Origin: Kalaharituber pfeilii
Taxonomy: Eukaryota; Ascomycota; Pezizomycetes; Pezizales; Pezizaceae
Reading direction: 5' to 3'
NCBI GenBank assembly: GCA_015179045.1
Contig: WHUZ01000144.1
Coordinates: 29,676 to 93,675, forward strand
DNA: 64,000 nt
Shown here one piece after another: positions 5,567 to 63,579 of the stretch. Position numbers and translations under genes: made by a program. The stretch's first letter is position 1; each line of letters opens with the position of its first letter. The notes beneath the pieces are model-generated. The model was given only the letters and a program-made list of their open reading frames with translations, did not search any database and was not told where the DNA came from.

Positions 5567-6938
5567 ATGATGGACCTTACAGATAATACAACAGACGGGA
5601 CTCAATTCTTTGATGATGATACCTAATACGCAACTGTCGATTACTAATAGTGGAAATATCCAGGACTATTAAAATCTAATTCACCTGGGTTAAATTCTAA
5701 AATCGCTTGAATTTACGTAAATGGCCTGGACTGGCCCTCATGGCCTGTTGGATTCATTGATAAACTATATAATTCCGTAAACCAGGACATACCCCAGGCG
5801 CCGATTACCAAGAGCAACGAAATAGCTCCTGCTCAGTTAATACCGTCACGAACGTATATCCAGAATTCCAGGTCGTCATTCACTTTTACTACTTCGCTTA
5901 CTTCCACAAATGGATCCCTTCACCATTTCGACCGGGGTTGCTGGCTTCCTCTCGTTAGCGCTTGAGCTTGTTAAGATCCTAACGAACTTTACAAGCCAGG
6001 CCAAGTCTGCCCCGAAGGTTGCTCATGCACTACTAACAGAGATTAATACACTAAGTCAGATCCTCAATCAGCTAATCTCATTTTTGAGGAAGGAGGATGT
6101 CAATGGGAATTTTCACGAGATTTCTGCAATTTGTGTCGTAATTGCGATCTGTAAGAGCAACATTGAACGTCTTCACCCAATCTTAGTTAAGTTTCAGGTG
6201 TCCGGAGGTCTCAGTGACTGCCTGAAATGGCCTTTAAAGAAGCAAGATTGCGTGGAGGTAACGCAAACATTGCATCGCTGCACTCAAACTATCGCATTTT
6301 CGCTAAGCATTGGGAATTGGTATTTTTTTCCACGACCCTCCACATTTTCATATCTATATGAATTACTAACTCGTGATAGTGAATTACTTTCCAAGACGTC
6401 GCGTGAAGTCATGACGGTCTTATCACAGCAGAAGCAGCAACTAGAGTCCATTACATCACTGTTTCCTGCTATTCCAGCTGAAATGTCCCAAATGAGCGCT
6501 ACACTTGGTGAGGCCTTGAACTTCGTTTCGACACTCGATGGCTCTCGACATGAATCAAATAAAGCTTGGTGTACAGAGCTTGCAACAGAACATGGACGGT
6601 ATGCTTAAATTTACGTTCTTCTGAGCCATATATATACTGACATAAGTACTGCTTCCTTAGTTGAGAATATCGAAAAACTCCTGTCATGGTTGTCACCACT
6701 CGAGCCGCAGAAAAGACATCAAGATATCAAATCTAGCCGCCTTGAAAACACAGGCACTTGGATCCTTGAGACTCCCCAATTTCAATCTTGGCGGGTCAGT
6801 GATGTTCAAAAGCCAAATGAATGGATTCTAGGTTGCGATGGGATGCCTGGAGCTGGGAAAACCGTCATTGCGTATGTCTATCTTTTTTTTTTTTAACACC
6901 TAACTCCGCTTATCGCTATTGTAAATCTGAAAGTTATT

Positions 6939-7017
6939 ATTATTATTATTATTATTATTATTTTTTTTTTTTTTTTTTATGTCATTAATCGCATGCCGCC
7001 CTATGGGCTATGGCGAT
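6939..7017 (-). mobile_element. LINE tail A inside an NLR intron
   Basis: Within the intron 6872-7121 a run of about 18 T is followed by the complement of tail A (ATTAATCGCATGCCGCCC, then GGGCTATGGCG). AAGTTATT occurs on both sides (6931-6938 and 7018-7025) and may be the target duplication. The adjacent (TTA)n and (TA)n runs blur the exact left edge. A second poly(T) with TTATCGCT at 6884-6917 may be another, different tail. Confidence 0.55.
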
Positions 7018-8937
7018 AAGTTATTGATATATATATATATATATATATATAAAAAGATAAGTTATTATTATGGTATTTCTGCACACACATGGCAACTCAG
7101 GCTAATTGATGTGACTTGAAGGTCTGTTGTTATTGAGAATTTATCTCTTACTGCTAAGCAACTAAAAACAGCTATTGCCTACCTCTACTGTGACTATCGA
7201 GATCAGAAGGAGCAAACTGCTGTGGATCTTGTAGGCAGCTTCATGAAGCAATTGATGCTGAAATTCATATCTTCCTCTCAACCCTTACCCGACATCGTCG
7301 TCAAGAAGTTTGAATCTGCTACAAAAGAAAGAAAAAGGTTAGAACTTGTGGATGCTATAGTTATGCTGAAAGATCTTTTACCAGAATTTGACGTCACTTT
7401 TATCTGTGTTGACGCAATTGATGAGTTGGAGGACCATACAAGGATAGACTTGCTTGCATTATTCAATGATATTTTTCAAATACAGTGCTCTAACTCTACA
7501 GCTAAACCTGGTTTCGGCATGGTACGGCTCTTCTTCACCGGCCGCCCACATGTTAAGGACGAGGTCTGTCGAGGCCTTGGGAGGCAAGTGCAATGGCTAG
7601 AGATTGTAGCGAAGGAAGATGATATCCGAAAATCTCTTATGCACAAGATTGATCGCGATCCGTCAGATGCCATGAATAGCAATCTGAAGGGGGAAGTATT
7701 AGATGTGTTACCAAAGAGATCGCAGGGAATGTATGTTTTCAATATTATGTAAATTGCGTCTGTATTAACTCTTTTGCTATCAGGTTTATGATATCTTCCA
7801 GACAGCTGCATCTAAGATTCCGTTTTGTGGTATGCATGCGGTCGCATACTTCGGAAATGAGGATATTCTGCGAGCGTTAGTACAAACTTCAAACCTGGAT
7901 TTAAGCGCCGAATGCGACTACGGTTACTCTCCACTATCATATGCTGCTATGCACGGTAATGACGCCGTAGTGCGCATGCTCCTTGAGCGAGCTGATGTCG
8001 ACAAAAATCCACGGAATACCCTGAGTGGCCAGACTCCCCTTTCACAGGCCGCTGAGAGAGGCCATGAGGATGTGGTCCGTACGCTGCTTGAGCGAGCTGA
8101 TGTTAATGTAAACGCAAAAGATACCCTTGGCCAGACTCCGCTTTCACATGCCGCTGAGGGAGGGCATGAGGGCGTAGTACGCTTGCTTCTCGAGCGAACG
8201 GATGTCGACGTGAACACACGGAATGGCATGTGTGGCCAGACTCCACTTTCACACGTCGTTGGGCGAGGCCGTGAGGGTGTAGTACGCCTGTTCCTTGAGC
8301 GTTCTGATGTGGACATTAACAAACGGGATGCCATGAGTGGTCATGCTCCGCTCTCACTAGGGTCCGCAAGAGGCAATCGGGATATTGTGCGCTTAATCCT
8401 CAAGCGAGCTGATGTCGAAGTCAACAAACAGGATGCTATCACTGGTCAGACCCCTCTTTCACACGCGGCTGCACGAGGTCATCGAGATGTCGTGCCTTTG
8501 CTTCTTAATCGAGCTGACATCAACGTAAATGCATGCGATACATGTGGCCAGACTCCACTTTCATACGCCGCTGAAGCGGGCCATGCGGATATCCTGTGTT
8601 TGCTTCTTGAGAGAGCTGATATTGATGTAGACAAAAGGTATAATGATGGTAAAACTGCGCTTTTATACACCGCTGTGGAAGGCAATGAGATAGTGGTGCG
8701 CTTCCTCCTTGAGCGAGCCAATGCCGGTGTCAACGCACAGGATACCAATGGCAGGACTCCACTTTCATTAGCCGCTGCGGAAGGGCGTGAGGCTGTAGTA
8801 GCCTTCCTCCTTAACCGATCTGATGTCGACGTAAATACAAGAGACCGGTGGAACAACACGCCAATTTCATTAGCCGCCAAGGAAGGCCATGAGGTCGTTG
8901 TACGCATGCTCCTTGAGCGAGCCAATATCGATCCAAA

Positions 8938-9869
8938 AAGGGTGGTGAATGCAGTGGCGAGGAGAAAGAGGAAAGGGGGGAATGCGAAACTGATGTGGGT
9001 CAAGGCCCACATCGGGATCACAGGGAATGAGAAGGCAGATGAGCAGGCAAAGAAGGGGACGACGAAGAAGGGGAAAGAAGTGGCCTCCGGAAGTGGGGTG
9101 CGCCAGAGAATTAAGGCATGGAGGAAGGAGAGGAGAGAAGTAGAGGGATACGGGAAGGGAAGGGTCATGGAGTGGAATAGGATAGCAGTACCCAATTCCA
9201 CTGCCTTGCGCCTAGAGAGAGGGAGTTGTGCGGTGTGGTTGAAGAGGATAGGGGCGGCTGAGTCGGATAAGTGCAGGTGCGGGGAGGTGCAAACCGGGGA
9301 GCACCTCGCTTTCCGGTGCAGTCACCAAAAGAATCGTCCAGAAGACTTTAGGATATGGAGAAGAACTGGAAAAGAACAGCGGTGAACGGGGAGGAGTGGG
9401 ATGAGTTGGAAAGGTTCTCTTCCGGGATCAGGTTTTAGAAGCGATTTTGCGATTTTCCTGATTTCCCGACCCGGGAGGGAATTCGCGCGGGGGGAGGGGG
9501 GTTAGTCAGAGTACGAGACTAGGGGGGGGGGGGGGGGGGGACGTAATGTAGTAACGAATTTTCTTTGAGCCCGTGGGGGAGTTTAGACTGGGGAGCACCT
9601 AGCTTTCTAGTGCGAAGGAGTTGAGAGAATAGGGAGACATGGAAAAGAACTGGAAGCGGACGGCGGAGAATGGGGATGAGTTGGAGAGGTTCTTTTCTGG
9701 AATCAAGCTATAGCGGCGGGGGGCGGGGGGGCGGAGAGGGGAGGTTACGCCATGTAGATAGAAACTTTCGTTTAGCCTGTCTCCGAGCTATGATATGAGG
9801 GCTTGCCCAGGGACCCTGCCATGGCTTAGCGCTGCAGCGGGGTAACGGGGTAAAAAAAAAAAAAAAAAA
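8938..9869 (+). mobile_element. 5'-truncated LINE (tail C) inserted in the ankyrin array
   Basis: A perfect 14-base target duplication, AATATCGATCCAAA, flanks the insert at 8924-8937 and 9870-9883. The insert begins inside an RNase H domain (residues VKAHIGITGNEKADE near 9000) and continues through a cysteine-rich segment (CRCGEVQTGEHLAFRC). It ends with tail C (CCCTGCCATGG, then GGGGTAACGGGG) and poly(A). Part of its 3' region is duplicated: 9293-9440 resembles 9586-9720. A run of 18 G sits at about 9523-9540. It entered in frame, so the upstream ankyrin frame reads into RNase H. Confidence 0.85.
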
Positions 9870-10939
9870 AATATCGATCCAAACTTAAGGAATGCCAATG
9901 GGAAGACTCCTCTTTCACACGCTGTTGAGTGGGGCCACGAGGATGTCATGCGCTTGCTCCTTGAGCGAGAAGATGTCGACGTAAACACACAAGATGCCAC
10001 CAATGGACGAACTCCGATTTCATATGCCTCTGAGCGATGCCATCCAGGCATATTACGCTTGCTCCTAATGCGAGCAGACGTCGATATAAACCTAGGGGAT
10101 GCCGATGGGAAGAGTCCGCTTTCACACGCCGCCGAACTTGGCCATGATGCTATAGTCCGCCTGTTCTTTGAGCGAACTGATCTAGATGTAAACTCAAGGG
10201 ATGCCGATGGGCAGACTCCACTTTCACACGCTGCTAAAAGAGGCCATGATGCTATAGTACGCTTGTTCCTAATGCGAGCAGATGTCGATATAAACTTAAG
10301 GGATGCCAAAGGGAAGACTCCACTTTCACACGCTGCTAAATGGGGCCATGATGCTACAGTACGCTTGTTCCTAATGCGAGCAGACGTCGATATAAACTTA
10401 AGGGATGCCAGAGGGAAGACTCCGCCGGTACACGCCCCATGGTGGGGGCATAGTGATATAGTGCGCTCACTTCTTGAGCGTGCTGATATTGACGTTAATG
10501 CAAAGAGCAGATATGGCAATACTGCACTTTCATATGCTACTGGGCGATGCGATAAGGATATAGTGCAGTCACTTCGTCTGAGAGCTGATGTCAACGTAAA
10601 CGATAGCATTATGGTTGAAGACTGGAAACAGCTTCCACGTGACACTCTGGGAAGTGATTCGCAACCGCATGAAGATGACGAGGCTTTCATGCTCCCAAGG
10701 GTTGAGGAGCTTATCGAGGTCGACCTCACCATAAGGGATACCGATGGCAGGGCAGATGATGACGATAGCTAGAGTTTTGTTCCATATCGCCGACGGTCCT
10801 TGCCAGTTCGCAACCCGGTTAGGCGAATGGACTGATTTTCTGAGGACACTGATCCATTCGCGAATAGGCCGGCCTGCCCGGGAATATTGCCTCAGGATAA
10901 GGACCACGAGGTACCACTATGCGCCACTGGCCAGAACTA

Positions 10940-20993: not shown

Positions 20994-21685
20994 GCACGCG
21001 ATCAGGAGAATGAAGGCGATAGCGAGGGGAGACCCAACACACGACGGTGCGACGAACAAGCTGAGAAAAGCATGGGAGGAGAGGGTGGGGAGGGGGGACA
21101 TAGACGTGGCGGTTATGTGGGTGAAGGCTCACGTAGGCATAGAGGGGAACGAAGAGGCAGACAGGGTGGCGGGTTGGGGGACAGCCTTGCAATATAAGGC
21201 GGAGGTGGTTACAGAGGCGGGGCAGAGACAGAAGCTCAGGAGAGAGAGAGCGGAAGAGAGGAACAGGTTAGACTTGGCGTACAGACCATTAGAAAGGCTA
21301 GGCAGGGAAGTTAGCCGACTAGCGGGGCTCCTGGGAGGGAAGGGGCTGAGGTCGTGGAGGTGGAAGATTGGGGAAGGGGATGGGCCAGAATGCAGATGGT
21401 GTGGAGAAGCTGAGGAGACGACTGACCATCTATTGGGTGAGTGTAGGGTATGGAGGAGGAGGTGGCCAGGGGGTGAAGAGCATGTGAGGAACCCTCCGAA
21501 GAGGAGGGAAGGGGAGAGAGACAGGCTAGGGACTCTTATAGAAATGTTGGGGGAGTGAGGGGGGGAGGAGGGGGGGTGAGGAGGGGATAGGTACATCTAA
21601 CTTTGTCGTATCTAACTATCACAACATCGCCATAGCCCTTAGGGCGGCAAGCGATTAAATGATATAAAAAAAAAAAAAAAAAAAA
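20994..21685 (+). mobile_element. 5'-truncated LINE A fragment (ORF2 C-terminus) in MULE 1
   Basis: A perfect 13-base target duplication, AATGCTTCCTTCG, lies at 20,981-20,993 and 21,686-21,698. The insert codes for the last part of RNase H (MWVKAHVGIEGNEEAD near 21,115) and the C-terminal cysteine motif CRWCGEAEETTDHLLGEC near 21,395. The frame stays open to TGA at 21,558. It ends with tail A and about 22 A. The sequence is clearly related to the end of ORF2 at 53,390-53,868. Confidence 0.85.
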
Positions 21686-21866
21686 AATGCTTCCTTCGCT
21701 TTCTTCACTACCTCCCTACTGCTACCGGGATTGCTTCAGCTTACACCTCATCTCATACAACCTCGGCTCATAGAACCTCGCCTCATACAACCTTGACTAA
21801 AGCCTCGCCTTACACTATCTCAGCTCCAATTATGTCTCTTCAATGTCTGTATCTCTTCTCCGTGCC

Positions 21867-23115
21867 AACAGAGACCTCCACCCGACGGCCAATAAGGAAA
21901 AGACAAAATGCCGAAGGGCAAAAACAAAGCGAGAGCCGCCCCTCCCTCTCCGCCACCTCCAAAAGCCCCCCCTCCGCCGCCATCACCACCACCGACGTCG
22001 GAAGGAGCGACGTTAAGCTGGGACAAATACTACCGGTCATGGGACGACATTCCGGTCCCTGACTGGGAAGAAACGGTCCAAGACCTGCTCGACTACAGAC
22101 GCATGATCCCGAATTTATGGGAGAATGTAGTGGCTGCACTTTGGGGAGTCGAGAAGGACACGACCCCAGTCAACGGGTCAATTCTGGCGATACGGTCCTG
22201 TGAAGACATGACGTTGAAGGTCTTCTCCGGGGACCCGAAAGACACCAGACCGAGCTGGCTTAGCCACGCAGACACACCACCACCGCCGCCACCTCAACCC
22301 TTGGGGCTCAGCCCCATTACGTGCATCCAGACAACCCCGGTGGAGGCCACCACCGAAGCATGCGGACTTAACTACTACACCCTGCTATCGGAGACACCCA
22401 CCCCCGAAACTCCCACCACCCCCACCCCAACAACCCCCGCAGGCAACACACCGGGGACGCCGCCTGCGAACAACCCAAAGAAAAGGAAAGGCAAAGCGGC
22501 ATTGACACAACCGTACCCCTTGAAGAAGAGACTTGACGATACGGAGGCCAGAAAGATCGACTCAAGCGGTGCCCCGTCATCGCACACACCAACAGCATCG
22601 GCATCAGCCTCCGCGCCCACTCCCTACCCCAGACCCACCCCGGAACGCAAGACCGCCCCCCCTCGACCCCAAAAAGCCAAATCCCTGACCCGACCATCCA
22701 CCCGCAATGCCACCACCCCCAGACCGGGCATTGTAATACACGGAATAGCCTTGAGAAAGGAACTCGGGAAAGTTCAGATGGTTGGAAACAGACAACAAAG
22801 CCATGGGAAAGACAGCAGGGATAAGATGGCTTAGAAGCAAGAAGACATTGCAAGAGGGCAAAAAGACAAGCTCGGTGGTGGTCTACCTAGAGGAAGACAA
22901 GGTAATGGACAGGGTGAGACTCGGAGGAAGATGGCTGAGGGCTTGCCGATACGAGTGGGACAGGTGAAGGAAGGAAAGACGTCCCCCGCATCGACCCACC
23001 CACAACACCAGAGAGGTCCGTGGGACTCACATGTAATGAGACAAGTAGTTAGTTTTTTATTTTTTCCTTTAATAAAAACCTCGCCATAGCCCATAGGGCG
23101 GCGCGCGAGTAATGA

Positions 23116-23147
<32 letters not shown>
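21867..23147 (+). mobile_element. ORF1-only LINE derivative, near full length (1,281 bp)
   Basis: A perfect 13-base target duplication, TCTTCTCCGTGCC, lies at 21,854-21,866 and 23,148-23,160, so both ends are defined. The insert has a 41-base leader, one ORF1-like gene (21,908-22,967), a short 3' untranslated region, tail A (CTCGCCATAGCCCATAGGGC and so on) and about 28 A. No endonuclease or reverse transcriptase is present. It must have been mobilised by another element, presumably the tail A LINE. Five related copies occur in the window. Confidence 0.85.
21908..22967 (+). CDS. ORF1-like RNA-binding protein of the ORF1-only element (one frameshift)
   Basis: LINE ORF1 proteins bind element RNA and assist retroposition. 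From ATG 21,908 the protein has a proline-rich N-terminus and a conserved block around WDDIPVPDWEETVQDLL. A long proline/threonine-rich linker contains NPKKRKGK, a likely nuclear localisation signal, followed by KKRLDD. A C-terminal domain begins GIVIHGIALRKELGK. A one-base loss near 22,772 shifts frame. The second frame restores GIRWLRSKKTLQEGKKTSSV and RVRLGGRWLRACRYEWDR to the stop at 22,965. The C-terminal domain aligns with the RRM-like region of LINE A ORF1 (about 50,040-50,280), but the CCHC zinc knuckle that follows in LINE A is absent. All copies in the window end at the same place, so the lack of the knuckle is a family trait. Confidence 0.75.
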
Positions 23148-23151
<4 letters not shown>

Positions 23152-23178
23152 CTCCGTGCCCGCGAAATCATTGCTGCT

Positions 23179-26070: not shown

Positions 26071-26125
26071 CTGCCTTGGCGAACAGCTGCATGCGGGGTC
26101 ACGTGAAAAAAAAAAAAAAAAAAAA
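26071..26125 (+). mobile_element. Tail-only insertion, tail C, at an inversion breakpoint
   Basis: In the present orientation this is CTGCCTTGGCGAACAGCTGC, then GGGGTCACGTGA, then 20 A. Its 16-base target duplication GGCCATCAATGAGGCT is split between 24,939-24,954 and the complement at 26,055-26,070. The A-run here and the T-run at 24,954-24,960 are the inversion breakpoints. Confidence 0.7.
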
Positions 26126-32589: not shown

Positions 32590-33138
32590 CCACACCCGAC
32601 ACCTCCGTCACCCCAACCAACACCCCCGTTGCCGCCACTAATACAAGAAATGGCATTGTCGTACACGGGATAGCCCTCAGGAAGAACCTGGGGAACGTCC
32701 GAAAATGGTTGGAGGCCGCAAACAAAGATCTGGGACGAACAGTCAGAATTCTGTGGTTGAGAAGGAAGGATATTCTAACCGAGGAGGGAAACCTCACCAG
32801 CTCGGTCGTTGTATACGTGGAGAAGCATGTCGAGCTGGAGAGAGTCAGACTGGGGGGAAATGGTTAAGGTCTTGCCAGCACAAGTGGGATAGAGGACGGA
32901 GATAGGCCAACACTGTTTTTTCTTCTGTTTACACCTTAACACCGGGACATTCACGGACAGTGACATGATTTGAGAACTTCATTTGTTATTTCTCCTTCAC
33001 ACTGGCGGAATCAGGGATCACTACCTAAACGTTTGAGGTTTTGTTTTTTTCTCACTCTCCTTTTATTTCTTATGTAACTAAATCGCCACAGCCCTTAGGG
33101 CGGCATGCGATCAATGATATTAAAAAAAATAAAAAAAA
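32590..33138 (+). mobile_element. ORF1-only LINE derivative, 5'-truncated
   Basis: The flanks AGATGCCAATATCC (32,576-32,589) and AGATGCCAGTATCC (33,139-33,152) form a target duplication with one mismatch. The insert encodes the C-terminal ORF1 domain (GIVVHGIALRKNLGN near 32,655). It has the same stop position as other copies after one frame change, then a 3' untranslated region and tail A with an interrupted A-run. The open frame reaching back to 32,541 starts in the flank. Confidence 0.8.
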
Positions 33139-33291
33139 AGATGCCAGTATCCGGTATGCGGGTTACGCGACCTCCGAAAAAAAGATTTCGTACAGTAACT
33201 GCCGCTGGAGGAAGAACTAGTCTAGTACGCTCTGTGCAGCTTGAAGCTCGTTAATTCCCTACAATTGGTCAATTACCCATGTCCGGAACGC

Positions 33292-47452: not shown

Positions 47453-50400
47453 ATGGCTCCAGCCACGAAAGCCACAAGAGGCCGAACCAACAGCCGGGCC
47501 GACCCTCTTCGGCAAGCCAAAAGCGCCACACGGACGGCAAAGCGCCGCCCAAGGGTAAATAACATAGAGTTTTATATGGTGAAGGACTGGAAGGCGCATG
47601 AAGACATGACATTTATCGCCGAAGACCAGCAATGGACCCTTCATAAGTTTGCTGACATTATCCAACACACCAGAAAGGGAGAACCGGAAAAGGCAGAAAG
47701 AATGGAAAATGCAACCACCCTAGCGGTGGGGCGAGGCGTATTCGCAGACGAGGAGGACATTGAGGTCCCTGTTAGGACAATAACTATCGACGACATACAG
47801 GCAGGCAGGGTTCTGACCCAGCAAATAATTGAGTTCATCGAAAGAAGCAAGGCCATGGACTCCCGCCCACCCGAAGACCAGATGGAGGAGACAATTGTAG
47901 TAAAGCCACCCGCCCCTAATACCTACGACAAGATGGAAGAAATGATCATGGTGAGACCACCAGAATTAAGAACTACGATTCCGGCGACATATGACAATGA
48001 GTCAGAGGTCCCGGATTCACAGGAGGAACCTGCATCCACAAGCAAGACCACGTCCCTCCCCCTATACAAGGACCCAGACTTTAGTGACAATGAAGGGTAC
48101 ACCCCGGTGCCTCACGCCGGAGCACACATGCCCATTAAAGATGATGACACACAAAGCGAGTCATCAGACGACACAGTAATATATATACCGGCAACTTCCA
48201 GCACTCGGCCACCAACTCCGGACAGACCCCGAACCCCGGACATGGATGAGAGTGCCTATGAGGAGCAATTCATGCTGGATACAGCAATAGCCGCAGCGAG
48301 GCAGGCACGCTCCTGGGAAACCAAGATGACTCAGGGCCGTATGAAACAAGAGACTGCCAGATATATGGGAGCTTCAGCAGCAGAAGCCCTACGGGGACTA
48401 GAGAAACGATTCGGACTAGGCAGGTGGGAAAGAGAAGTGGATAATGACCTTAAAAGATGGACGAGGGATATGGCTGATAAATACTGGGCCTGGAGGAACG
48501 AGCAAGCAGCAGGAACGGATAGTATCCATACTGACATAAGCCGGGAACTAGAAGAGGCACAACAAGACCTAAAACAGCACACGAGAGTGTGCTTAGAAAC
48601 ACACCACGAGGGCATTCGCCACTTCATGCTCAACCAGATGGCAGTCGAAAGAAAGAAAATCAAGGACGAAATACTATACGAGATATTCAACCGAGACACC
48701 CTCAGAGAGCGGGACGACAGTTGGGTGAGGATTATCCTAGACGCCTTACAATACCACAGCAATATCCTGGATGACCTAAGAAGAAGACTCGGGGTAGTCA
48801 CGCCAGGCAGAATCGAAATGGAACCAGAACTCACACTGACACATACAACAAACTGGAATGACCTTACCTCAGGAGCAAACACGCCCGAATTGACAGCAAC
48901 GGCCACACCCTTGGAGACAAAGACGCCTACATTAATTGACCTCAGCACGCCTAGCGCATCACCCATGCCAAATAACAAACTAACTACTGAAGAAGGAGGG
49001 GACCAAATGGACAGAACTTATACAAACGTGAAACTTGAGGATAGCAGGCACGCGGTCAGGCTCAAGACAATACCATCGCCCCTCACAGGAATGATACGAA
49101 GGCCGGTAGGAAAGAGAAGCTCCTCGGTACCTGCCCGGAAGACTACAGAAGAAGGAGGAGATAGTATGGATTATGAGCTCACCAATACGAACCTCAAAGA
49201 CAGCAAGCACGCAATCGAAATTGACAGAGACATAGCCATGCGAGACAACACAGACATGTCGAGTACCATACACATGTCCAACAGCATACCAACAAACTCA
49301 AGCCCGGCGCAAGAACCTGTGATAAAGTCTACAACTACAGTACAGCTTCCTAAGACATCACGAGGTGGATCCAAGCCCCAAGGAGATGGACGAAAGGGAG
49401 CAGCTACCAATAGAATAGCTAGAAATAATACTAACAAAACAGCCACCAGTGAGGGTGCTCCTACCACTGAGAAACTGGACAACAAGAAGGGGGCCGAGAC
49501 GAGAGGCACAAGTAGTACTCCCAACATACCGACACATAAAGGAGAGAAAAGCAAGGAGAGGACACCAGAGAATGAGACAAAACGCTCCCAATCCACTGAG
49601 AAAAGGAAATCATATGCTACGGCAGTAAAAGAAGCCAAACTCACAAGAGAAGACAAACCCCAAGCAGGAACCCCAACTCAGAGACAAGAGGAAAAGCGGA
49701 CACTACTCAAGGGGCCAGCACAGAAGGGTGAGGAAGAAGTAATACCCAAGGAGAAACTGTGGCAGGCGAGAGTCTTTGGGGCGCAAAACTGGCAGAGTAT
49801 TAGTGAGGATCCAAGATCACACTCAGTGTTCGAGCACAAAAAGGCCATGAGAGACAGGATCAATCGAAACCTAGGAACGGAAGCAGAGTACCAAGTGAGA
49901 TTCGTTGCCCTGGACCCAGAATACCCCCACGAAAGAATCTTAATCATGGCAGATACTCAGTATAAGAAAGGACTTAGGTCTCTAGGCCCCCTAGAGAAAG
50001 CAACATGCAATGGACACCAACATCTAAAAGTCGACTGGGATCACAGAATGGTTGAGCTAGTAACTTTCAACATAGGAACCAATGAGGCTCCGAGCAGGGT
50101 GGAGAGAGAATTGAGAGCTGACAATCCAGGAGTATTGGCCAATAGATCAGTACGCAGATTAACTAACAAACAGGTTCCAACACAAGGAAACAAGGCACTA
50201 TCCATTTTTGTGACTGATGGAGTAGTCGAGACCCTAAAATCAGGCTTACTCTTCAGAGGTGATAGAATAAAAGCTATACCTAAGACAGGATCTAGGAAAG
50301 GAGACCTCGAATAAAGCCAGAAGATATAGGTACACTGCTCCAGATGGATACTGCCGACATTTCGTAGTGGGACAGGTAATCGAGTGGCTCCCCAGACAAC

Positions 50401-50603
50401 GCAACCTTCCAGAACATCTGAAGAGCTCACCAGCAAGGCGAGACTACGAAGACCCAGTCGACCTCAATGAAACTCCATTTGCAAAGTCATGCCAGGCTTG
50501 TCGAAAGAAAGGCGGACACGAGGAAGGGTGTGAACGAGCGAGAGCAGCACAGGAGAAAGCGACCCCATATAGGGCACCAGGGTATCGACAAATAAGACTA
50601 TGA
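47453..50603 (+). CDS. LINE A ORF1 protein (RNA-binding, RRM-like and CCHC), one frameshift
   Basis: ORF1 proteins coat LINE RNA. From ATG 47,453 the frame is open for 953 codons to a stop at 50,312. The N-terminal and middle parts are charged, with acidic/threonine-rich linkers (about 47,850-48,250 and 48,800-49,600) and a helical block (about 48,400-48,800). The C-terminus has a folded domain (LWQARVFGAQNWQSI near 49,760) followed by an RRM-like region (ELVTFNIGTN to ALSIFVTDGVVETLKSGLLF, 50,040-50,260). A +1 change near 50,305 leads to RRYRYTAPDGYCRHF and the knuckle CQACRKKGGHEEGC at 50,490-50,531, ending at TGA 50,601. LINE copy 2 is continuous here, so this is a mutation and not programmed frameshifting. 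Confidence 0.8.
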
Positions 50604-53600
50604 TTAAGGTCGCATACCAGAACGTTGGCAGGTCAATACTGGGGACGGACCTAGCCCTACAGGAAGCAGCAGACAAGAAAATAGATATACTTTTTATAGG
50701 GGAATGCTGGAGAGCACCAAGGGGAGGAACTACATTTCATCCAAGCTATACGAACGTACATTCTCCTATAAAAAGCGGAGCAATAACAGCCTACGTAAGG
50801 AAGGACAGAATAATGAGCATGAAAATAGACGGCAAAGCCAACCACATCACAGTACAATTAGACGACCGAATGATTACTGGAGTGTACTGGAACAGAGACA
50901 CCGATATTGAGAAGGAATTGGAAGAGATAGGAGTAACGGATATGGTAATAGGGGACTGCAACAGCCATCACTATGACTGGTCTCCGAAACAAGATACTAG
51001 AGGCATACTATTAAAAGACACCCTCCAAGCACGAGGACTACTCCAACAGATAGATAGAAATACTATCACATGGACACGGACAATCAATGGACAGATAAGA
51101 ACGGCACTCTTGGACCTGGTATTCGCAAGGCCCAGGGAATGGAAAACAACAAAGACAACATGGATTTCTGGTACAGACCATGTGATGATTATCGGAACAT
51201 TGGATACCAGAAAGAAGACAGAGGCCAAAACCATCAAAGTAACAGACTGGGACAAATGGGAAGAATTTGTTGATAAATATGGCAACAGAAAACTAGCCGA
51301 AGGTATTGATGGGTATGAACTACTATGTGAATTAAGCCAAAAGTTTACAAAAGATGCATACATCACCAGACGCACGAAACGATGGTTCGACAAGGAGGTA
51401 AAAGAGGCACGACAAATGACCAGAACCATTCTAAAGAGCGGGGCTAGCCACACAGAGAAAACAAGAGCGAGAAGACTACTTAGGGAGATAATAAGAGATA
51501 AGAAGAAGGAATACTGGGAAGGCTTCTTAGAAGAGGACAGAATCACCTCACCATGGGATATTTTCAGGCTAGCAAGAGACCCTTTCCGCCAAAGAGACCT
51601 CATGGGGATACCAGGCTCAGACGAGGAGATAGCTAAGGTATTGATTGAGCGCAACTTCATATCACAAGGACAAGAAACTACGACCACTACTATCAGACCA
51701 ACAGGACTCACCGTCGAAAAAGATCAAGCCAGGATGATGATAGAAAAGGCACTAACAAAAGCTAAACCAAGATCAGCACCGGGACCCGATGGCATACAAT
51801 ATGGCTTACTGAAGCTTCTGAAGGGTACGACTCTATGGACTGCTGTAAGAGAGAGAATTGTAGAGTATATAAACGGTGACTACGACTTTGCCAGAGGCTT
51901 TGAGGTGGTTATGATACTCAAGAAAGGGAAACCCAGAGATCAGGTAGGGAGTTGGAGACCCATAACGCTTCTGAACACAGTAGCGAAGCTAGGTCAAAAA
52001 GTCATCGCAGACCTGCTACAAAGAAAAGACGACCTTTTCAGAGACACTCAGCTTGGAGGAAGACGCCATCGAGGTGCAGAGGATCTACAGCGACAAGTGC
52101 TGAAGGAGACAGAGAAGAGGCTACAGAAGAAAGAATGGGTAGCCCTAGTAGGAGACGATATCAAGTCAGCTTTTAACTTTCTTCGAAGGGACAAGGTGGT
52201 TGCTCGAATAAGACAAACAGACCATAACCTAGCGAGCTTTGTAGAAGCTTTTATGATGCCGACCAACTACAACATGACATGGGATGGCAAAAGGAGAGCT
52301 ACAGGGAGGATGACAGATGGTACACCGCAAGGATCTCCACTATCCCGGTACTATTCCTGATAGGTGTAGCACCTGTGGCAGAGAAGGTAGACCAACACAA
52401 CTTCACCAGGTCATATGTCGATGATTTCCACAGTGTAATCTCACATCCGTCACTCCTAAAACTCAGACAAGCCATAAAGATACACAGGGCAAAAATCACC
52501 GAAACAGCAGCAGAGCATGGATTCGAACTTGACCCAAACAAGTCCGAGACACTAATAATTGGGGTAAAAGGCCCTGACTATAGGCTAACCGGATTGACGG
52601 TAGATTGGGAGCTAAAATTTACTCGACATCATAAGAAGAGACTACTTCTCGGGAAGGCAGCATGGGGAGTGGCATCGAGACTAACTCGCCTCACACCAGG
52701 CAAGAAACGACAGATATATACAAGCATCGCACGCACAATCGCCACATGGGGATGCTGGGCATGGCAGGACTACTCAAGACAGTCTCCACCAGCAACCAAG
52801 ATCAAAGACATAGAAAAATGGCAATACACAGTAGCACAGAAGATTACTGCAGCCCCGTGGGGTACCAGGCGAGACGTAGTCGAAGGAATAGCCAACCTAG
52901 AATCAGCCCAAACATTCCTAGAAGGAGAACGCCAGAGGGTAGAAGCCAGGGCCCTACGGTTCCACGATGAGATAATTCAAAACAGGGATAATGAGTGCAG
53001 GTACCTACGGGGGTCTCTCTCACACAACAACCCCCTACCACTAGCCATCCTACCAGCACTACCTGCGGACGCAGACAAGCTCGAGTTCGAGAATGCCATA
53101 GCCAATGCCGAGGACGAGGGGTGGAACTCCGTCTACACTGACGGGAGCAGGATAGATTACAAGACAGGTCTAGGCACCTACGCAAAAGACACCTCTACTT
53201 CCACATACCTAGGGGAACAGACTACTGTCAATGATGCAGAACTCATTGCCATGAGCGAAGCATTACGCAATCAAGCTGGGGAACTCCTGATCATAACCGA
53301 CTCTAAGGTATCGATATCCAAGCTCCTAAAGATCGCCCAGGGAGAGCCCACCCACAAAGGACCGGCAAAACTGGTTAGAGACGCCTGGAAAGCGAGAACA
53401 GACCGAGGTGACTGGGACGTTGCAGTGATGTGGGTCAAGTCCCATATAGGAGTCAAAGGGAACACCGAAGCAGACACAGCTGCGAAAATAGGCACATGCC
53501 TCCCCTACCAAGATGAAACCATAACAGAAGATGGGATACGACAAACCTCGAGACATCAGCGCGCCACAGAGAGAAACCGGCTAGGGCTCAGCTACCGTCC

Positions 53601-53868
53601 CTTGACAAGACTTGGAAGTCGACACATAGCCACACTAGCAGGAATACTGGGCGGCAAGTTACTACGGAAATGGCAGTACGAAATCGGGAAAGCAGACAGC
53701 CCAGAATGTCGATGGTGTGGGGAGGAGGAGGAGACTACTGAACATGTGCTCACTAGGTGCAGGACATGGAAACGAAAGTGGCCAGGAGGCATGCAAGACT
53801 TGGTCACTCCTCCGAAGAGCAAGGACACAGACCCACTTAGAGACATCTTGGAGTGGGCAGGGGCATAG
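50600..53868 (+). CDS. LINE A ORF2: endonuclease, reverse transcriptase, RNase H (one frameshift)
   Basis: The protein nicks the target, primes reverse transcription there and copies the LINE RNA. ATG 50,600 overlaps the ORF1 stop (ATGA), which points to termination-reinitiation. Endonuclease motifs are QNVG, GECW, GDCNSHH and TDHVMI (50,610-51,190). RT motifs are APGPDGI (51,777), WRPITLLN (51,954), DDIKSAFN (52,155), GTPQGSPLS (52,318) and SYVDDF (52,411-52,428), the catalytic pair. One base is missing in TATCCCGG near 52,344 and moves the frame to that of 52,279-53,868. RNase H motifs are YTDGS (53,134), DAELIAM, ITDS and SHIGVKGNTEAD (53,439). The C-terminus carries CRWCGEEEETTEHVLTRC (53,707-53,760). 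It ends at TAG 53,866. Confidence 0.85.
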
Positions 53869-53932: not shown

Positions 53933-54000
53933 CTAATCTCGCCATAGCCCCCAGGGCGGCACGCGAGTAATGATATAAAAAAAAAAAAAAAAAAAAAAAA
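53933..54000 (+). other. Reference copy of tail A
   Basis: CTCGCC, then ATAGCCCCCAGGGCGGC, then ACGCGAG can fold with an outer CTCGC/GCGAG stem and an inner GCC/GGC plus CCC/GGG stem. TAATGATAT and 24 A follow. The same structure with compensatory or neutral changes ends all LINE A fragments and all ORF1-only elements in the window. Confidence 0.75.
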
Positions 54001-56418: not shown

Positions 56419-56872
56419 TTTTTTTTTTTTTTTTTTTTTTTTTTTTATTTCATTACTCGCATGCCGCCCAACGGGCTGTGGCGAGGTTTATATTTAAAAC
56501 GAAAGAAAAGAAGTCAAGATCTCTAACTCCTAACTACATGTGGTACCCGCGGACTCTTCACTATCGCGGGTGGCGCCCGGTACAATCCCCTACTTCCGTC
56601 CCCTCTCCGGCTCATACCGGACCGACTTCAGCCATCGCCCACTCAGTCTCACCTTGTCAACCTCCATGTCCTTGCCCAGATAAACCACCACTGAACTCGT
56701 CTTCTTGCCCTCCCCTTCCAAAATCGTCTTCCTCCTCAGCCAGCGAATACCGGTTATCCTTTCCCAAATCCCGGTTCGCGGCCTCCAGCCACGCCTTCAC
56801 CTTACCTAAATCCTTCCGCAAGGCGATTCCATGTATGACGATGCCGTGTTTACCTCTGGTGGTGGCATCGGG
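56419..56872 (-). mobile_element. ORF1-only LINE derivative, 5'-truncated, in hAT
   Basis: The 13-base duplication TTGGCCTTTGATC lies at 56,406-56,418 and 56,873-56,885. The minus strand encodes HGIVIHGIALRKDLGKV (about 56,800-56,850) and, after frameshifts, the remaining C-terminal domain. Tail A and poly(A) follow, seen as a 28-base T-run at 56,419-56,446. Confidence 0.85.
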
Positions 56873-58087: not shown

Positions 58088-58504
58088 TGTATCATTCTGT
58101 ATTGCGCACAATCATGTATTTAGGTACTTCGCTTTTTAATGAATTCTCGCTAGTTGCCACACCAAGACAGTGAGCTCAGCCGCACCATATGCAAGACGGG
58201 ACAGTCCGTTATGCAACCTTCGGGACAGTCAGGACAGTCAGGACAGTCCAAAAGGACTGTCCGGAGACATCCCGTTCTCATACAAATGGTTTCTATGGGA
58301 ATATGAATATTGTGAATAATTTCACAACCATCACAGGTATTACCTAACTACGTTGTTCATAGTTTCCGACTGAGTGATGCTATTGAATGTGAGTGTCTGG
58401 GTTTTTTTTATGAATTGATTGCAGGTGTAGCATGCAGAATTCCAGGGTGGTGACATTTGTATGGAGATCCCATACAAATAAATGCCAACCCTTCCAACGT
58501 AAAT
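58088..58504. other. Flank of MULE 2, no gene seen
   Basis: Contains a local cluster of GGACAGTC repeats with their inverse (58,200-58,265). It could be part of a terminal structure, but no partner was found. Confidence 0.35.
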
Positions 58505-59249
58505 TTTTTTTTTTTTATTTCATTACTCGCGTGCCGCCCTATGGGCTATGGCGAGGTATATATTTCAAGGAAAAAATAAATCATAACTAAATACAAGTAG
58601 TGCCCGCGATGATTATGTGTATTGCGGGTGTCCATACAAAGGGACCTCCTTCACTTCCGCCTTCTGTCCGGTTCGTATGTGCTAATCCTCAACCATTTCC
58701 CGCCCAGTCTCACCTTCTCCGCGCTTGCCCCTCCCTCTAGGTACACCACGACTGAACTTGTCTTTTTTCCCTCCTCCAACAACAGCGTCTTCTTTCTCAA
58801 CCATCTAATTCCAATCGTCTTTCCCAGCTCCGGGTTCCCTTCTTCCAGCCATCGTCTGATCCTCCCCAGATCTTTTCTGAGGGCGATCCCGTGGACAACA
58901 ACGCCGTATTTCGAGGTGGTGGCGTCGGGGTTCGCTGGCTGGGTGGGGTGCTTGTGGTTCTTCCCGGTGGGAATCTTGGAAGGGGTTGTCATCTTGGTCG
59001 GAGTGTCTTGGGGACCTCGGAGGTCTTGGGAGGCTCGGGGTTCGGGTTCGGGTATCGGGTTTTGGTGAGGAGGTTTTGGCCGACGAGGGGACCGTGTCCG
59101 TTGTGATGTTGTCGGCAACCGGGGGCGCGTGGCTATCTTCTTAGCCTCCGCATCGTCAAGTCTTCTTTTGATGGCGTATGGCTTCTCCCGTGTCTTCTTG
59201 CCTTTCCTTTTTCTTGTCTCGGACTTGACAGGGACTGCTCGCGCCTCGC
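58505..59249 (-). mobile_element. ORF1-only LINE derivative, 5'-truncated (745 bp)
   Basis: The 13-base duplication TTCCAACGTAAAT lies at 58,492-58,504 and 59,250-59,262. Reading the minus strand gives the ORF1 linker, the C-terminal domain, a 3' untranslated region, tail A and 13-14 A. Confidence 0.85.
58651..59249 (-). CDS. ORF1-like protein fragment with intact C-terminal domain
   Basis: The open frame has no ATG inside the element. A methionine at 59,274 lies in the flank, so it is a fusion by chance. It carries RKRKGKKTREKPYAIKRRLD, a proline-rich linker and the conserved domain GVVVHGIALRKDLGRIRRWL, ending GGKWLRISTYEPDRRRK before the stop at 58,651. This is the best-preserved C-terminal domain of the ORF1-only family in the window: no frameshift is needed. 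Confidence 0.7.
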
Positions 59250-59262
59250 TTCCAACGTAAAT

Positions 59263-59949
59263 GCGACAAGCCATAATCCCTTTGCACCCACAATTTTTGA
59301 TGAAGAAAAAGTGCTAGATAGCAAGAATTACACTTTGTCTAATAGCTACACAAGGTGCATTCACAAATGCTGTTGTGGTTGTTGAAATATTGACTGCGAA
59401 AGTTGCGCAATTTTGGTGGTAAATGTGTCCGGGAAAGTGGTGAACTACAGTATGCTTCAGAATGAGTTCTTTTAACAGGTATGGCAGGCCCTCTCAACAG
59501 CACGATATACTACAAAATGAGCTCTTTAAATAGGTATGGCAGGCCCTCTCGACATGTAAGGGCGATGCTGGGATCAGTAGGCGAAGGCACGATCGCGGGT
59601 GCTACGAGACAGCAGGGACAGAGAGGGACAAGGTAGAAGAGAGAATGAGCGTACGTTGACCAGTGGAGACTACATACAGGCGGGTAGGAGAGGAGGTATA
59701 TATAGACAAGAGAGAGTGAACAGAAGTAGCAGGTACGAGTATTGCATGAACTTGGACATGACGACATAGAAGAAGACAGATGGAGATAGAAACATACATG
59801 ACGACATAGAAGAGTGCTTGTAGAATGCTGTAGAATGATGTGGATGATGTAGAGCTATGGCGGCGGTTCGAGAGCATTCTATGGTTCGGGTCGATCACTG
59901 CATGGTTGTTACCAAGAACTAATCCCTGTTATTTCCTATTGCGGCATGA
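59263..59949. other. Intergenic with two minisatellite units
   Basis: Two units of the 55-57-base repeat described at 59,950 lie at about 59,453-59,560. Otherwise nothing is recognised. Confidence 0.4.
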
Positions 59950-60255: not shown

Positions 60256-60535
60256 TTTTATAATGTATTTACTATTACAGATTCACTGTAACCGTAGGGC
60301 GGGCGGGCGGTGGATGTGCATGCAGTATACGCATATGCGACGTAGGCGATATGCGGCAGCCAGGCGCCAGCGTCACAGTCATGAAATGTGCTATATGAGC
60401 TACGCAGAGGACTAGCGAGTATCACTGGTCAAGTGTCTTTTTGGCCTGGTAGACGGTAAGTCTCTGCATTTACTACTATCCGTTATATTTGCCATGTGCA
60501 AAATGGTTTATTTTATACATATATAAGGAGCCCAT

Positions 60536-61745
60536 TTTTTTTTTTTTTTTTATATCATTACTCGCATGCCGCCCTATGGGCTATGGCGAGGTATTTATTA
60601 AAGAAAAGAAAAAGAAAAGAAGTAACTGTAACTAAATACATGTGGTACCGCGATACTCGTACATGATGTGGGTGGAGTGCAGGGGCCAGCGTGTCTATCA
60701 TCTCTCCGACTCGTACCGGCATGCCTTCAACCGCTTCCCTCCCAAACGCACACTCTCAGTTTGGACCTCTTTTTCCAGGTATACCACGGCTGAGCTCGTC
60801 TTCTTCCCTTCCTCCAGCAGCAGCGTCTTGTGTCTCAGCCATCTAATCCCAGTGGTCTTGCCGATGTCCTTGTTTGCCTCCTCCAGCCATCTGCGGACTT
60901 TCCCCAAGTTCTTTCTCAGGGCGATTCCGTGAATGACTGTGCCTATTTTCCTCGTGGCGGTGGGGGAGCTTGTCTTGGTGCTAGGTGTGGCTTTCCTGGG
61001 TTTCGGGGGGGCACGTTTCGGGGGGTGGGTGTTGGGTAGTGTCATCGGGGGCGGGGAGGCTTGATGACGGTGTAGCGGTTGAGGCAATCTTCTTTGCCTC
61101 CATGTCCGTAAGCGCCCGCTTAATGGCGTATGCGGCTTGGTTGGACGGCATTTTGCCTTTGCGCTTTCTTGTGGGTGTGGTGGGTGTAGTTTCCATTGGC
61201 TCCGACTGAGTGCACGTGATCGGCTGAACCCCATCGTCGTTGGCGGTGGTGGCGATAGTGGCGGTGGTGGTGGTGGTTCCACTGGCTCCGACTGAACGCT
61301 CGTGATGGGGCTGAACCCCAGCGTCGGTAGCGGTGGTGGTGGTGGTGATGGCAGGTGGAGGGAGCGGGGCTGGCCTGATCTTCCGCGGAAATCTCTACCC
61401 TGCTCCATGTGTCGTCTAGGAAGCGTACTGTTAGAACCGACCCCTTCGTTGGGTTTTTTGTACCCAGATCGTGGTCCTGGTAGTTCCCCCATAACGACCC
61501 GACGATGGTGCCTAGGTCGAGTTCTAGTCCTTCTCTCAATTGTCCCCAGAACGGTATCTCGTCGGGGTGAAATTCTCTCCTCGGGTTTCTAGGCATCTTA
61601 TTGGGTGTTGGCGTCGTCTTCGGTGTCTCCTATTGGTTCTTGGCCCGGGGTTGGTGTGGGAGATGTATTGGCAATGGAGGTGGCAACGAGGTGTTGAGCT
61701 GAAGATTCCTCGCGATTTTGCCCCTCGGGGGAAAACCGCTTCCTG
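60536..61745 (-). mobile_element. ORF1-only LINE derivative, near full length
   Basis: On the minus strand a 5' leader starts near 61,745 (TTTTCCCCCGAGG) and ATG 61,596 begins ORF1. The C-terminal domain ends at 60,698, then tail A and poly(A) at 60,536-60,590. Its leader matches the leader of the neighbouring copy (about 62,385-62,277), so the start at about 61,745 is well supported. No target duplication was identified. Confidence 0.7.
60698..61596 (-). pseudogene. ORF1 of the ORF1-only element, frameshifted
   Basis: From ATG 61,596 it encodes FHPDEIPFWGQLREGLELDL, matching the conserved N-terminal block of the copy at 21,908 (WDDIPVPDWEETVQDLL). A proline-rich linker with KRKGKMPSNQ follows in a second frame. 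The C-terminal domain (GTVIHGIALRKNLGKVRRWL to CRYESER) lies in a third. At least two frameshifts. Confidence 0.7.
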
Positions 61746-62276
61746 GCGGCGGGGGAGGTGGGGTCGCGCTCGGAGGCTCCTCTGCGCGGGTGGTGCTCCC
61801 GTGGCTGTGGGGTCGACCGAGGAGGACGACGTGATCTTTCTGGCTCCTCATCGCTGAGTTGGCGCTTAATCTCATATGGTTGGTTGGGAGCTGGGGGTTT
61901 TTCCCTTCCTCTTCTTCGTTCGAGTAGGGGTGGTGTTGCCGACCGTGCGTGGCGTCGGTGGCGGTGGTGGCGGTGGTGGCGCCGGCGGTGATGGTGGTGG
62001 TGGGGCCAGTTTGTCGCTTGGCCAAACCCAGCTGCCTGACTCCCACTGGGGCCTTTCTTCTCTCGGACCCCCAAATACGCACTCTGGGTCGTCTGGGTCG
62101 TCCCCGCACTCGAAGTAGATAAATGTCCCTTTTCCGGTTTCGCTCATCTCGTGCTTCAAGTAGGCCGTGATGGCCCTTTTTTTTTTTTTTTTTATTTCAC
62201 GTGACCCCGCTTGTAGCTGTTCGCCATGGCAGGGCGCCGTGATGGCCCTCGCGACCGTCCTGAATGCCTCGCCCAT
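61746..62276 (-). pseudogene. ORF1 N-terminal half, interrupted by a tail insertion
   Basis: From ATG 62,276: MGEAFRTVARAITA, then 58 inserted bases, then AYLKHEMSETGKGTFIYFEC and DDPDDPECVFGGPREERPQW. The proline-rich linker follows. Frame changes occur around 61,875. It reads through the junction into the leader of the next copy and stops at 61,598. Confidence 0.6.
62178..62235 (-). mobile_element. Tail-only insertion, tail C (58 bp), in an ORF1-only element
   Basis: A perfect 14-base duplication, GCCGTGATGGCCCT, lies at 62,164-62,177 and 62,236-62,249. The insert is poly(T), then the complement of tail C (ATTTCACGTGACCCCGCTTG, TAGCTGTTCGCCATGGCAGG). Confidence 0.9.
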
Positions 62277-62385
62277 GGCTGCTTCCTATTTGGTCTTGGC
62301 GTGCGGGGGTGTGGGTGGCAACGGAGGTGTTAAGCTGAAGAAATCCTCAGAATTTCACCCCGGGGGAAACCTGTGAATCGTGGTA

Positions 62386-63579
62386 TTTGAGGATGTAAAT
62401 TAGACCAAAAGACTCAGCGCGCTGAGGGCTTTCGATCTATGTATGTTTCGCTGGGGGGAACGTTGTGGTTGCGAAGTCGCTTCCAAACGCTCATCCTGTT
62501 GTGGTTGTTGTCGGTCGAGATGGATAACGACTCTGTGTTTGAATACCCCGTTCATATGTTGACGGCGGTCAACTTGGGCGACATCAAGGTCCGGCAGATG
62601 GATTTCTTCAGCAGATGTCACAACCACCAGAAGCGTAGTCTCATACCACCAGAAAGCGCAACTGATGCCCACCCCGCCGGTTCGGTATTGCAGGTTGTAT
62701 GAAAGCCCGATGCAGGTTAGCTTTGGAATGGGAAAACTATCCATCAACACTCGGTTCCTGAAACACCTGCACCAACTCAGCATGTCCATAAATGACGGAG
62801 GTCTGTAGTATGTACTGTTGTAGAATCTCGTGCCTGAGAATAGGAGACATTTCCGGTACAGATTTCCCGCTTCTTTGATGAATCATAAGCGGTTTTCGGT
62901 AATGTGAAGGAGACATTCAACTCAATTTAGGGTTTGAATCACACCGTGCTTGAAAAGAGGCAGCAGTACTTAGATTGATGACGAATTCGCCGAATGGTTG
63001 TGTGTACATCATGAGCATAAGGAGTAATAGGTGACGTAGCCATCTCACAAATCATGAACAAAGAACCAAATGTTGCACCCCCCTGCACTTCACACTCCTA
63101 CAGCCCCGGAGCCTCCTCTCTTGTATTTGCTACCCGTTCCCTCCTTTCCCTCACAACCTATATTCAACTCCTTAGGCAAATGTACATTGCAATTGATATC
63201 AAATTAAAATAGTTTGATAAGCGTTAAGACCATCTGCTTGAAGGCAGTTCCGGGCGTCGTCTCGATGGCTTTAGGGTATACTGATCTACTGTATCACCCT
63301 GAAAGATAATGAAGGTGAACAGGAGCAGATAAATGAAGGCAAGACCGGTTCCATCGGTGGTTTCTGACGGAGAACGCATATCAGTTAGAGTAATCGTACA
63401 GTTGGTGCGTAGCACACCTACCCGCCGCGTGATTTATCTCTACCTCTCCTTCGACGAACTCCATGATGCCTGCGTCTATGATTTTTCGATGTCAGTTCGT
63501 ATGATAGGTACACTTGTTGAGTCCATTGCAAGGACCTAACTAACCTTCTGTTTCTAGCTCTTGAGTTGCCAGGAGGAGT
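62386..63579. other. Gene-free stretch
   Basis: Open frames on both strands around 62,400-62,790 and 63,224-63,540 show no motif and no clear start context. Nothing is recognised. Confidence 0.35.

Follow-up and report, generated by a model that had tools for sequence, protein, structure and literature searches.

Six copies of a short element in the genome of Kalaharituber pfeilii, a desert truffle (PMC7550596), raise the question of how an element with a single gene moves and where that gene comes from. The copies lie in a stretch of 64,000 bases, here called the window (contig C51, positions 29,676-93,675), of a genome of 78.0 Mb in 360 contigs; contigs carry C numbers and loci L numbers. 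In the initial annotation the copies were described as an ORF1-only family ending in the tail of a nearby LINE, LINE A. This description stood in essence, whereas the element model drawn from the first copy and the limit given for the sixth had to be revised. Our analysis indicates that the family, HAL-1, is probably a non-autonomous non-LTR retrotransposon that codes only for an ORF1-type RNA-binding protein and is mobilised in trans by LINEs sharing its tail. In mammals, HAL1 (half-L1) codes for ORF1p alone, without an ORF2, and is described as having several origins (PMC5753468).

The HAL-1 element and its copies in the window

All six copies have the C-terminal domain in common, and tail A followed by poly(A) is present in each of the five that reach a 3′ end, as had been annotated. 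Copy 1 (21,867-23,147, plus strand) is flanked by the target duplication TCTTCTCCGTGCC (left 21,854-21,866, right 23,148-23,160; found in the sequence and by script) and carries its tail A hairpin at 23,080-23,109, as seen in the sequence and by folding. It had been taken for the whole element, with a 41-base leader and a whole gene. Comparison with the genome showed instead that it is 5′-truncated, lacking about 240 bases of the 5′ UTR, and its ORF of 308 amino acids (21,908-22,834), when compared with intact ORFs, leaves the frame in the RRM region. The copy measures 1,281 bases, compared to 1,515 in its 96% identical relative L002. Copy 2 (32,590-33,139, plus strand) is strongly 5′-truncated, with tail A at 33,084.

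The other four copies are on the minus strand. Copies 3 (56,419-56,872) and 4 (58,504-59,246) are both 5′-truncated and end in tail A; copy 4 retains an intact RRM frame as part of a 207-amino-acid ORF (58,651-59,274). In copy 5 (60,535-61,745) the beginning of the 5′ UTR is missing, whereas the RRM frame (ORF 60,698-61,492) is intact and tail A is present. The four target duplications reported earlier were found again, those of copies 1, 3 and 4 by script and that of copy 2 by eye, with one mismatch; for copy 5 the script found none. Copy 6 (61,746-62,511) has the 5′ UTR from its conserved start, which lies at 62,511 and not at the annotated limit of 62,385, and is without a 3′ end. Copies 5 and 6 abut (60,535-62,511), so that a copy without its 3′ end is joined to one without the first part of its 5′ UTR, and this junction perhaps arose from template switching during insertion.

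Within copy 6, 59 bases consisting of tail B and poly(A) are inserted on the minus strand (62,177-62,235; tail B match at 62,232), as read from the sequence. Since the insertion has its own 13-base target duplication, tail B was inserted alone at this site. Short tail B matches followed by poly(A) occur in the window at 26,071 (plus), 35,701 (plus) and 62,232 (minus). LINE A is on the plus strand, with an ORF1 of 953 amino acids (47,453-50,314), a CCHC motif in the next frame before 50,603, and an ORF2 (50,600-53,868) that codes for endonuclease, RT and RNase H and is split into two overlapping frames in the window copy. The distance between ORF1 and the start of ORF2 is 286 bases, and a tail A hairpin follows the element at 53,938-53,967. 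Elsewhere in the window (5,910-10,772) there are ORFs with ankyrin-like repeats, recognised by eye, one of which (7,832-9,385) seems to enter LINE RNase H-like sequence near its end.

Full-length HAL-1 elements in other parts of the genome, bounded by target duplications, are 1.37-1.58 kb long. They consist of a conserved 5′ UTR, one ORF with a C-terminal RRM-like domain, about 110 bases, the tail A hairpin and poly(A), start about 250-290 bases upstream of the ATG and are flanked by target duplications of about 11-14 bases. The common 5′ end together with target duplications was found in L002, L012, L013, L023 and L030, and also in 11 of the 20 loci L081-L100, which had been picked for long open frames. 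The C-terminal domain is predicted to be RRM-like and is conserved in 54 intact ORFs from the examined loci and the window, some of which are identical. The stop codon lies three residues past the domain core in 49 of these and at the end of the core in the other five. None of the 54 contains a CCHC-like motif, in agreement with the earlier statement that the knuckle is missing from all copies; the same pattern finds two motifs in the ORF1 of another LINE (L102) and one in the frame after the LINE A ORF1. A Pfam search gave no match for any of three HAL ORFs tested. In the 5′ UTR, a 42-base region is ungapped in 38 of 41 distinct UTRs and has no compensatory cells, and no structured hairpin is claimed for it. 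A 5′ UTR common to HAL-1 and LINE A was considered and rejected, the two sharing only a 24-base match (E 0.094).

A hairpin tail in HAL-1 and in LINEs

When searching the 78-Mb genome for tail A with up to three mismatches, 6,993 matches were found, compared to none for the reversed control. We classified 188 tails from the examined loci and the window, with a few RRMs paired with two nearby tails: 91 follow a HAL-1 RRM at a median distance of 108 bases, 24 follow a LINE RNase H at a median of 85 bases, and 73 follow neither. Tail A comes after the RRM in all 20 loci L081-L100. Among 29 classified index tails, which come from thirty tail loci representing the first zero-mismatch matches by contig order and are a non-random sample, six follow a HAL-1 RRM, six an RNase H and 17 neither. 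Upstream of the hairpin, the HAL-1 and LINE tails have little in common as judged by eye.

The hairpin itself covaries. In 104 distinct 31-base versions of tail A, nine pairs form two stems and 96% are paired. The stems contain 39 compensatory cells (26 in the outermost pair, nine in the loop-closing pair), compared to a maximum of 18 in 1,000 shuffles, which ignore the relatedness of the copies; 13 of the 188 tails were dropped for indels or more than seven mismatches. In addition, the tail of HAL-1, that of LINE A and the LINE tail at 21,628 adopt similar folds, for which the z-scores are modest (-2.1 to -1.5).

A mechanism consistent with this arrangement would be that the endonuclease and RT of LINEs ending in tail A, namely LINE A and its relatives, act in trans to reverse transcribe HAL-1 RNA and insert the product, and that these enzymes recognise the hairpin common to HAL-1 and its helper. 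The HAL-1 protein may bind its own RNA, preferentially in cis, and form a particle with it, and we propose that the ORF was kept because the protein does so. The earlier suggestion that HAL-1 uses the enzymes of LINE A specifically gains from the common covarying tail; it is still a matter of inference, as LINEs other than LINE A also end in tail A.

Like SINEs that have the tail of a stringent-type LINE, HAL-1 is short and has nothing but the 3′ hairpin tail in common with LINEs of its genome; unlike such SINEs, it contains a conserved gene for a protein, on which purifying selection acts. Like mammalian HAL1, it codes for an ORF1-type protein alone, and no ORF2 was found in the copies examined. 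In contrast to HAL1, which is derived from L1, HAL-1 could not be traced to LINE A, which is presumed to be its helper. Two further differences from HAL1 are the structured tail that HAL-1 has in common with this presumed helper and the existence of a sister family whose tail is a different one. HAL-1 appears to work like HAL1 with a common tail of the SINE type.

HAL-2, tail B and the kinship of the RRM domains

On contig C32, an insertion in reverse orientation, which contains a HAL-like RRM and a different tail, splits a LINE ORF1 (L101). A genome search, in which 149 of 2,280 candidates were scored, revealed a second large ORF1-only family, HAL-2, in which open frames of 319, 322 and 374 codons form blocks of equal score. 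Tail B has 2,724 matches in the genome and its HAL-2 form 362, compared to none in the control of either search. Among the first 100 of the 362 HAL-2 tails, 45 sit 121-313 bases behind a HAL-2 match, a pairing that used 71 of the 150-odd HAL-2 matches listed. By analogy, HAL-2 would do with tail B and another LINE what is proposed for HAL-1.

The LINEs found in the genome include LINE A, family 2 on C32 and family 3 on C337 and C15, where C15 and C337 were placed in one family because of their similar distance to LINE A (35-36%) and not by direct comparison. The LINE on C15 has an endonuclease 35% identical to that of LINE A and an open frame of 1,315 codons. By frame arithmetic, about 95 bases separate its stop from a sequence resembling tail B, which poly(A) follows; the HAL-2 tail resembles this one without being the same. 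Tail A, the tail of HAL-1, is thus found behind LINE A and its relatives, and a tail-B-like end behind the C15 LINE. The LINE ORF1s have RRM-like and CCHC regions; HAL-1 is without CCHC, and both HAL-1 and HAL-2 are without ORF2.

Profile comparison with hhalign aligned the RRMs of HAL-1 and HAL-2 over 78 columns with 54% identity (E 7e-26). The LINE ORF1s entered this comparison as single sequences. HAL-1 matched the family-3 ORF1 (L102) with 21% identity over 76 columns (E 0.0066, probability 5.8%), and HAL-2 gave E values of 0.42 and 0.47 with the ORF1s of LINE A and family 3, respectively. Two family-3-like ORF1s recovered each other at 97.9% in the same comparison. A derivation of HAL-1 from LINE A by deletion was rejected, no RRM relation being detected (E 0.14 over 43 columns). 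Among the sequences compared, which include few LINE ORF1s, HAL-1 and HAL-2 therefore appear as mutual nearest relatives despite their different tails. In the initial annotation the family was seen as an old lineage, independent of LINE A, with a retained coding sequence of its own, and a nearest RRM relative in HAL-2 rather than in one of the few LINE ORF1s compared supports and extends this view.

Judged from sequence comparison, the two families could with even plausibility be branches of one old ORF1-only lineage, apart from the present LINE ORF1s, in which the RRM was kept, the N-terminal modules were swapped and the tail was exchanged between A and B. The kinship of the RRMs together with the different tails is the main support for at least one switch of partner between LINE helpers, with few LINE ORF1s behind it, and such a switch is in our view an evenly balanced proposal. 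A possible, somewhat doubtful alternative is that no partner was switched and that HAL-1 and HAL-2 each arose separately from an extinct or unsampled LINE with a HAL-type ORF1, keeping the parental tail. In mammals, L1 gave rise to ORF1-only elements more than once (PMC5753468), the LINE ORF1s compared here are a handful of single sequences, and a SYAAV-like stretch before the HAL-2 RRM resembles those of LINE ORF1s by eye, all of which would suit separate origins. The 54% identity between the two RRMs argues against them, as neither family matches the LINE A ORF1 and the family-3 ORF1 is matched by HAL-1 alone, and weakly.

If a single lineage with partner switch is the right reading, its elements would be the equivalent of SINEs with a protein gene, persisting through changes of LINE helper, and an ORF1-type protein could long be the sole gene of a retrotransposon lineage. 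It would then become possible to test a standing question, namely which role such a protein plays for the RNA encoding it if another element supplies the enzymes. A genome that houses two branches, each with a tail of its own, would provide a natural experiment on RNA recognition by LINEs and on partner change by their parasites. Searches of the open-access literature on fungal or ORF1-only non-autonomous LINEs and on fungal LINE-SINE tail pairs found no such fungal family; a non-autonomous element encoding a peptide is described from Blumeria (PMC6022598). Protein searches, which need common five-residue words, returned no HAL relatives outside K. pfeilii (26 of 26, 22 of 22 and 7 of 7 matches came from this species).

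Search for an ORF2, selection and recent movement

Could HAL-1 copies be recurrent deletion products of an autonomous LINE with the same ORF1, in which the ORF was selected? Mammalian HAL1s did arise several times from L1 (PMC5753468), and our HAL-1 copy numbers are lower bounds, with 40 of 1,627 and 150 of 2,363 candidates scored, so that a rare ORF2-bearing copy could escape. The initial annotation had called for a search for an ORF2 downstream of the HAL-1 ORF1. No same-strand endonuclease was found within 4 kb downstream when the 150 RRM matches listed (of 151) were crossed with the 150 endonuclease matches listed (of 156), the query being the endonuclease of LINE A, which very divergent ones may escape. 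Two same-strand pairs lie 4.3 and 4.8 kb apart (L017 and L035), both with the tail right after the RRM. Likewise, 12 further 5′ UTR loci had no endonuclease match within about 2.1 kb; 11 of them had a same-strand HAL protein match, in some cases short or interrupted, and L073 only a reversed one. The HAL-1 subfamilies, moreover, have the 5′ UTR in common, and their 3′ UTRs, which are alike in length, run straight into the tail; the three LINE families with a seen ORF1 carry other ORF1s. A recurrent origin by deletion is therefore unlikely.

RNase H pieces lie downstream in four of the 12 UTR loci, after the HAL tail in L069, L071 and L072 and after a short HAL match in L076. In the copies L069, L071 and L072, each on a different contig, the downstream DNA is the same for more than 1 kb and includes the LINE RNase H pieces, which indicates that a larger unit was duplicated. 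Among the subfamilies, L084 and L086 are 92% identical in the RRM and 11% in the N-terminal module (protein columns), and L084 and L023 are 57% identical in both.

The RRM of HAL-1 is under purifying selection. For 47 distinct intact domains, dN/dS (Nei-Gojobori) was 0.21 at dS 0.02-0.4 and fell to 0.11 at dS 1.5-3; sampling intact domains lowers the value, and 480 of 1,081 pairs with saturated dS were dropped. Even so, the domain is far from the ratio near 1 that the initial annotation had named as the mark of LINE debris. Changes at the three codon positions numbered 206/155/469 on internal and 208/160/406 on terminal branches (70 copies, 14 of them stop-bearing; RRM matches under about 73 residues were dropped). 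For whole ORFs, dN/dS ranged from 0.24 to 0.38 in five comparisons across subfamilies and from 0.33 to 1.33 in nine very young pairs with few changes, a tenth being undefined (three non-synonymous changes and no synonymous one). This pattern fits source copies under selection and inserted copies that drift.

These values bear on the reading in which the ORF is dispensable, so that the elements behave as large SINEs and the protein has no purpose in movement. A shared tail can be enough to account for mobilisation by LINEs of the stringent type (PMC4176376), and many copies are 5′-truncated. Given the low dN/dS of the RRM, the excess of third-position changes on internal branches too, and young full-length copies with intact ORFs, we consider this very unlikely. 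Hardly credible is a domesticated gene family spread as retrocopies, for which the numerous, LINE ORF1-derived EKA genes of powdery mildews are the model (PMC4641428), since HAL-1 occurs at many sites as a complete mobile unit, flanked by target duplications and provided with a tail, and EKA proteins are reported to be without the C-terminal nucleic-acid-binding half (PMC4641428) whereas the RRM is the most conserved part of HAL-1.

In Blumeria, truncated LINE ORF1s became effectors, the EKA family with AVRk1 and AVRa10 (PMC4641428). Very numerous ORF1-derived or ORF1-like frames in a fungal genome are common to EKA and HAL-1. In the EKA effectors the truncation comes ahead of the nucleic-acid-binding domain; HAL-1, in contrast, is mobile as a unit and has retained its RRM. 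The many ORF1-like frames had first suggested a link to the EKA effectors of mildews; the host proved to be a desert truffle, and the protein searches, which depend on common five-residue words, gave no link between HAL and EKA effectors and returned K. pfeilii proteins alone.

Groups of nearly identical HAL-1 copies (98-99.7%) in different flanks show that the family moved recently. Over 1,429 bases, identity among L091-L094 is 98.8-99.7%, and their flanks differ; L091, L092 and L093 have clear target duplications of their own, and none was trusted in L094. L082, L089 and L090 are 98.1-98.8% identical and L086 and L087 99.5%, each copy with its own duplication. The LINE A ORF2 is young as well, with at least 23 endonuclease matches at 98-100% identity, one of them that of the window, and seven within open frames of 1,098 codons. 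An identical stretch of 3,621 bases is present on two contigs (L009, C51:86,829-90,449; L010, C61:69,077-72,697), with LINE A matches at nearly equal offset, and represents either a segmental duplication or an uncollapsed allele. Three K. pfeilii database proteins (P0005, P0018 and P0036) have a HAL RRM as the C-terminus of otherwise unrelated or LINE-like sequence, and these are either insertions into genes or fusions in the gene models.
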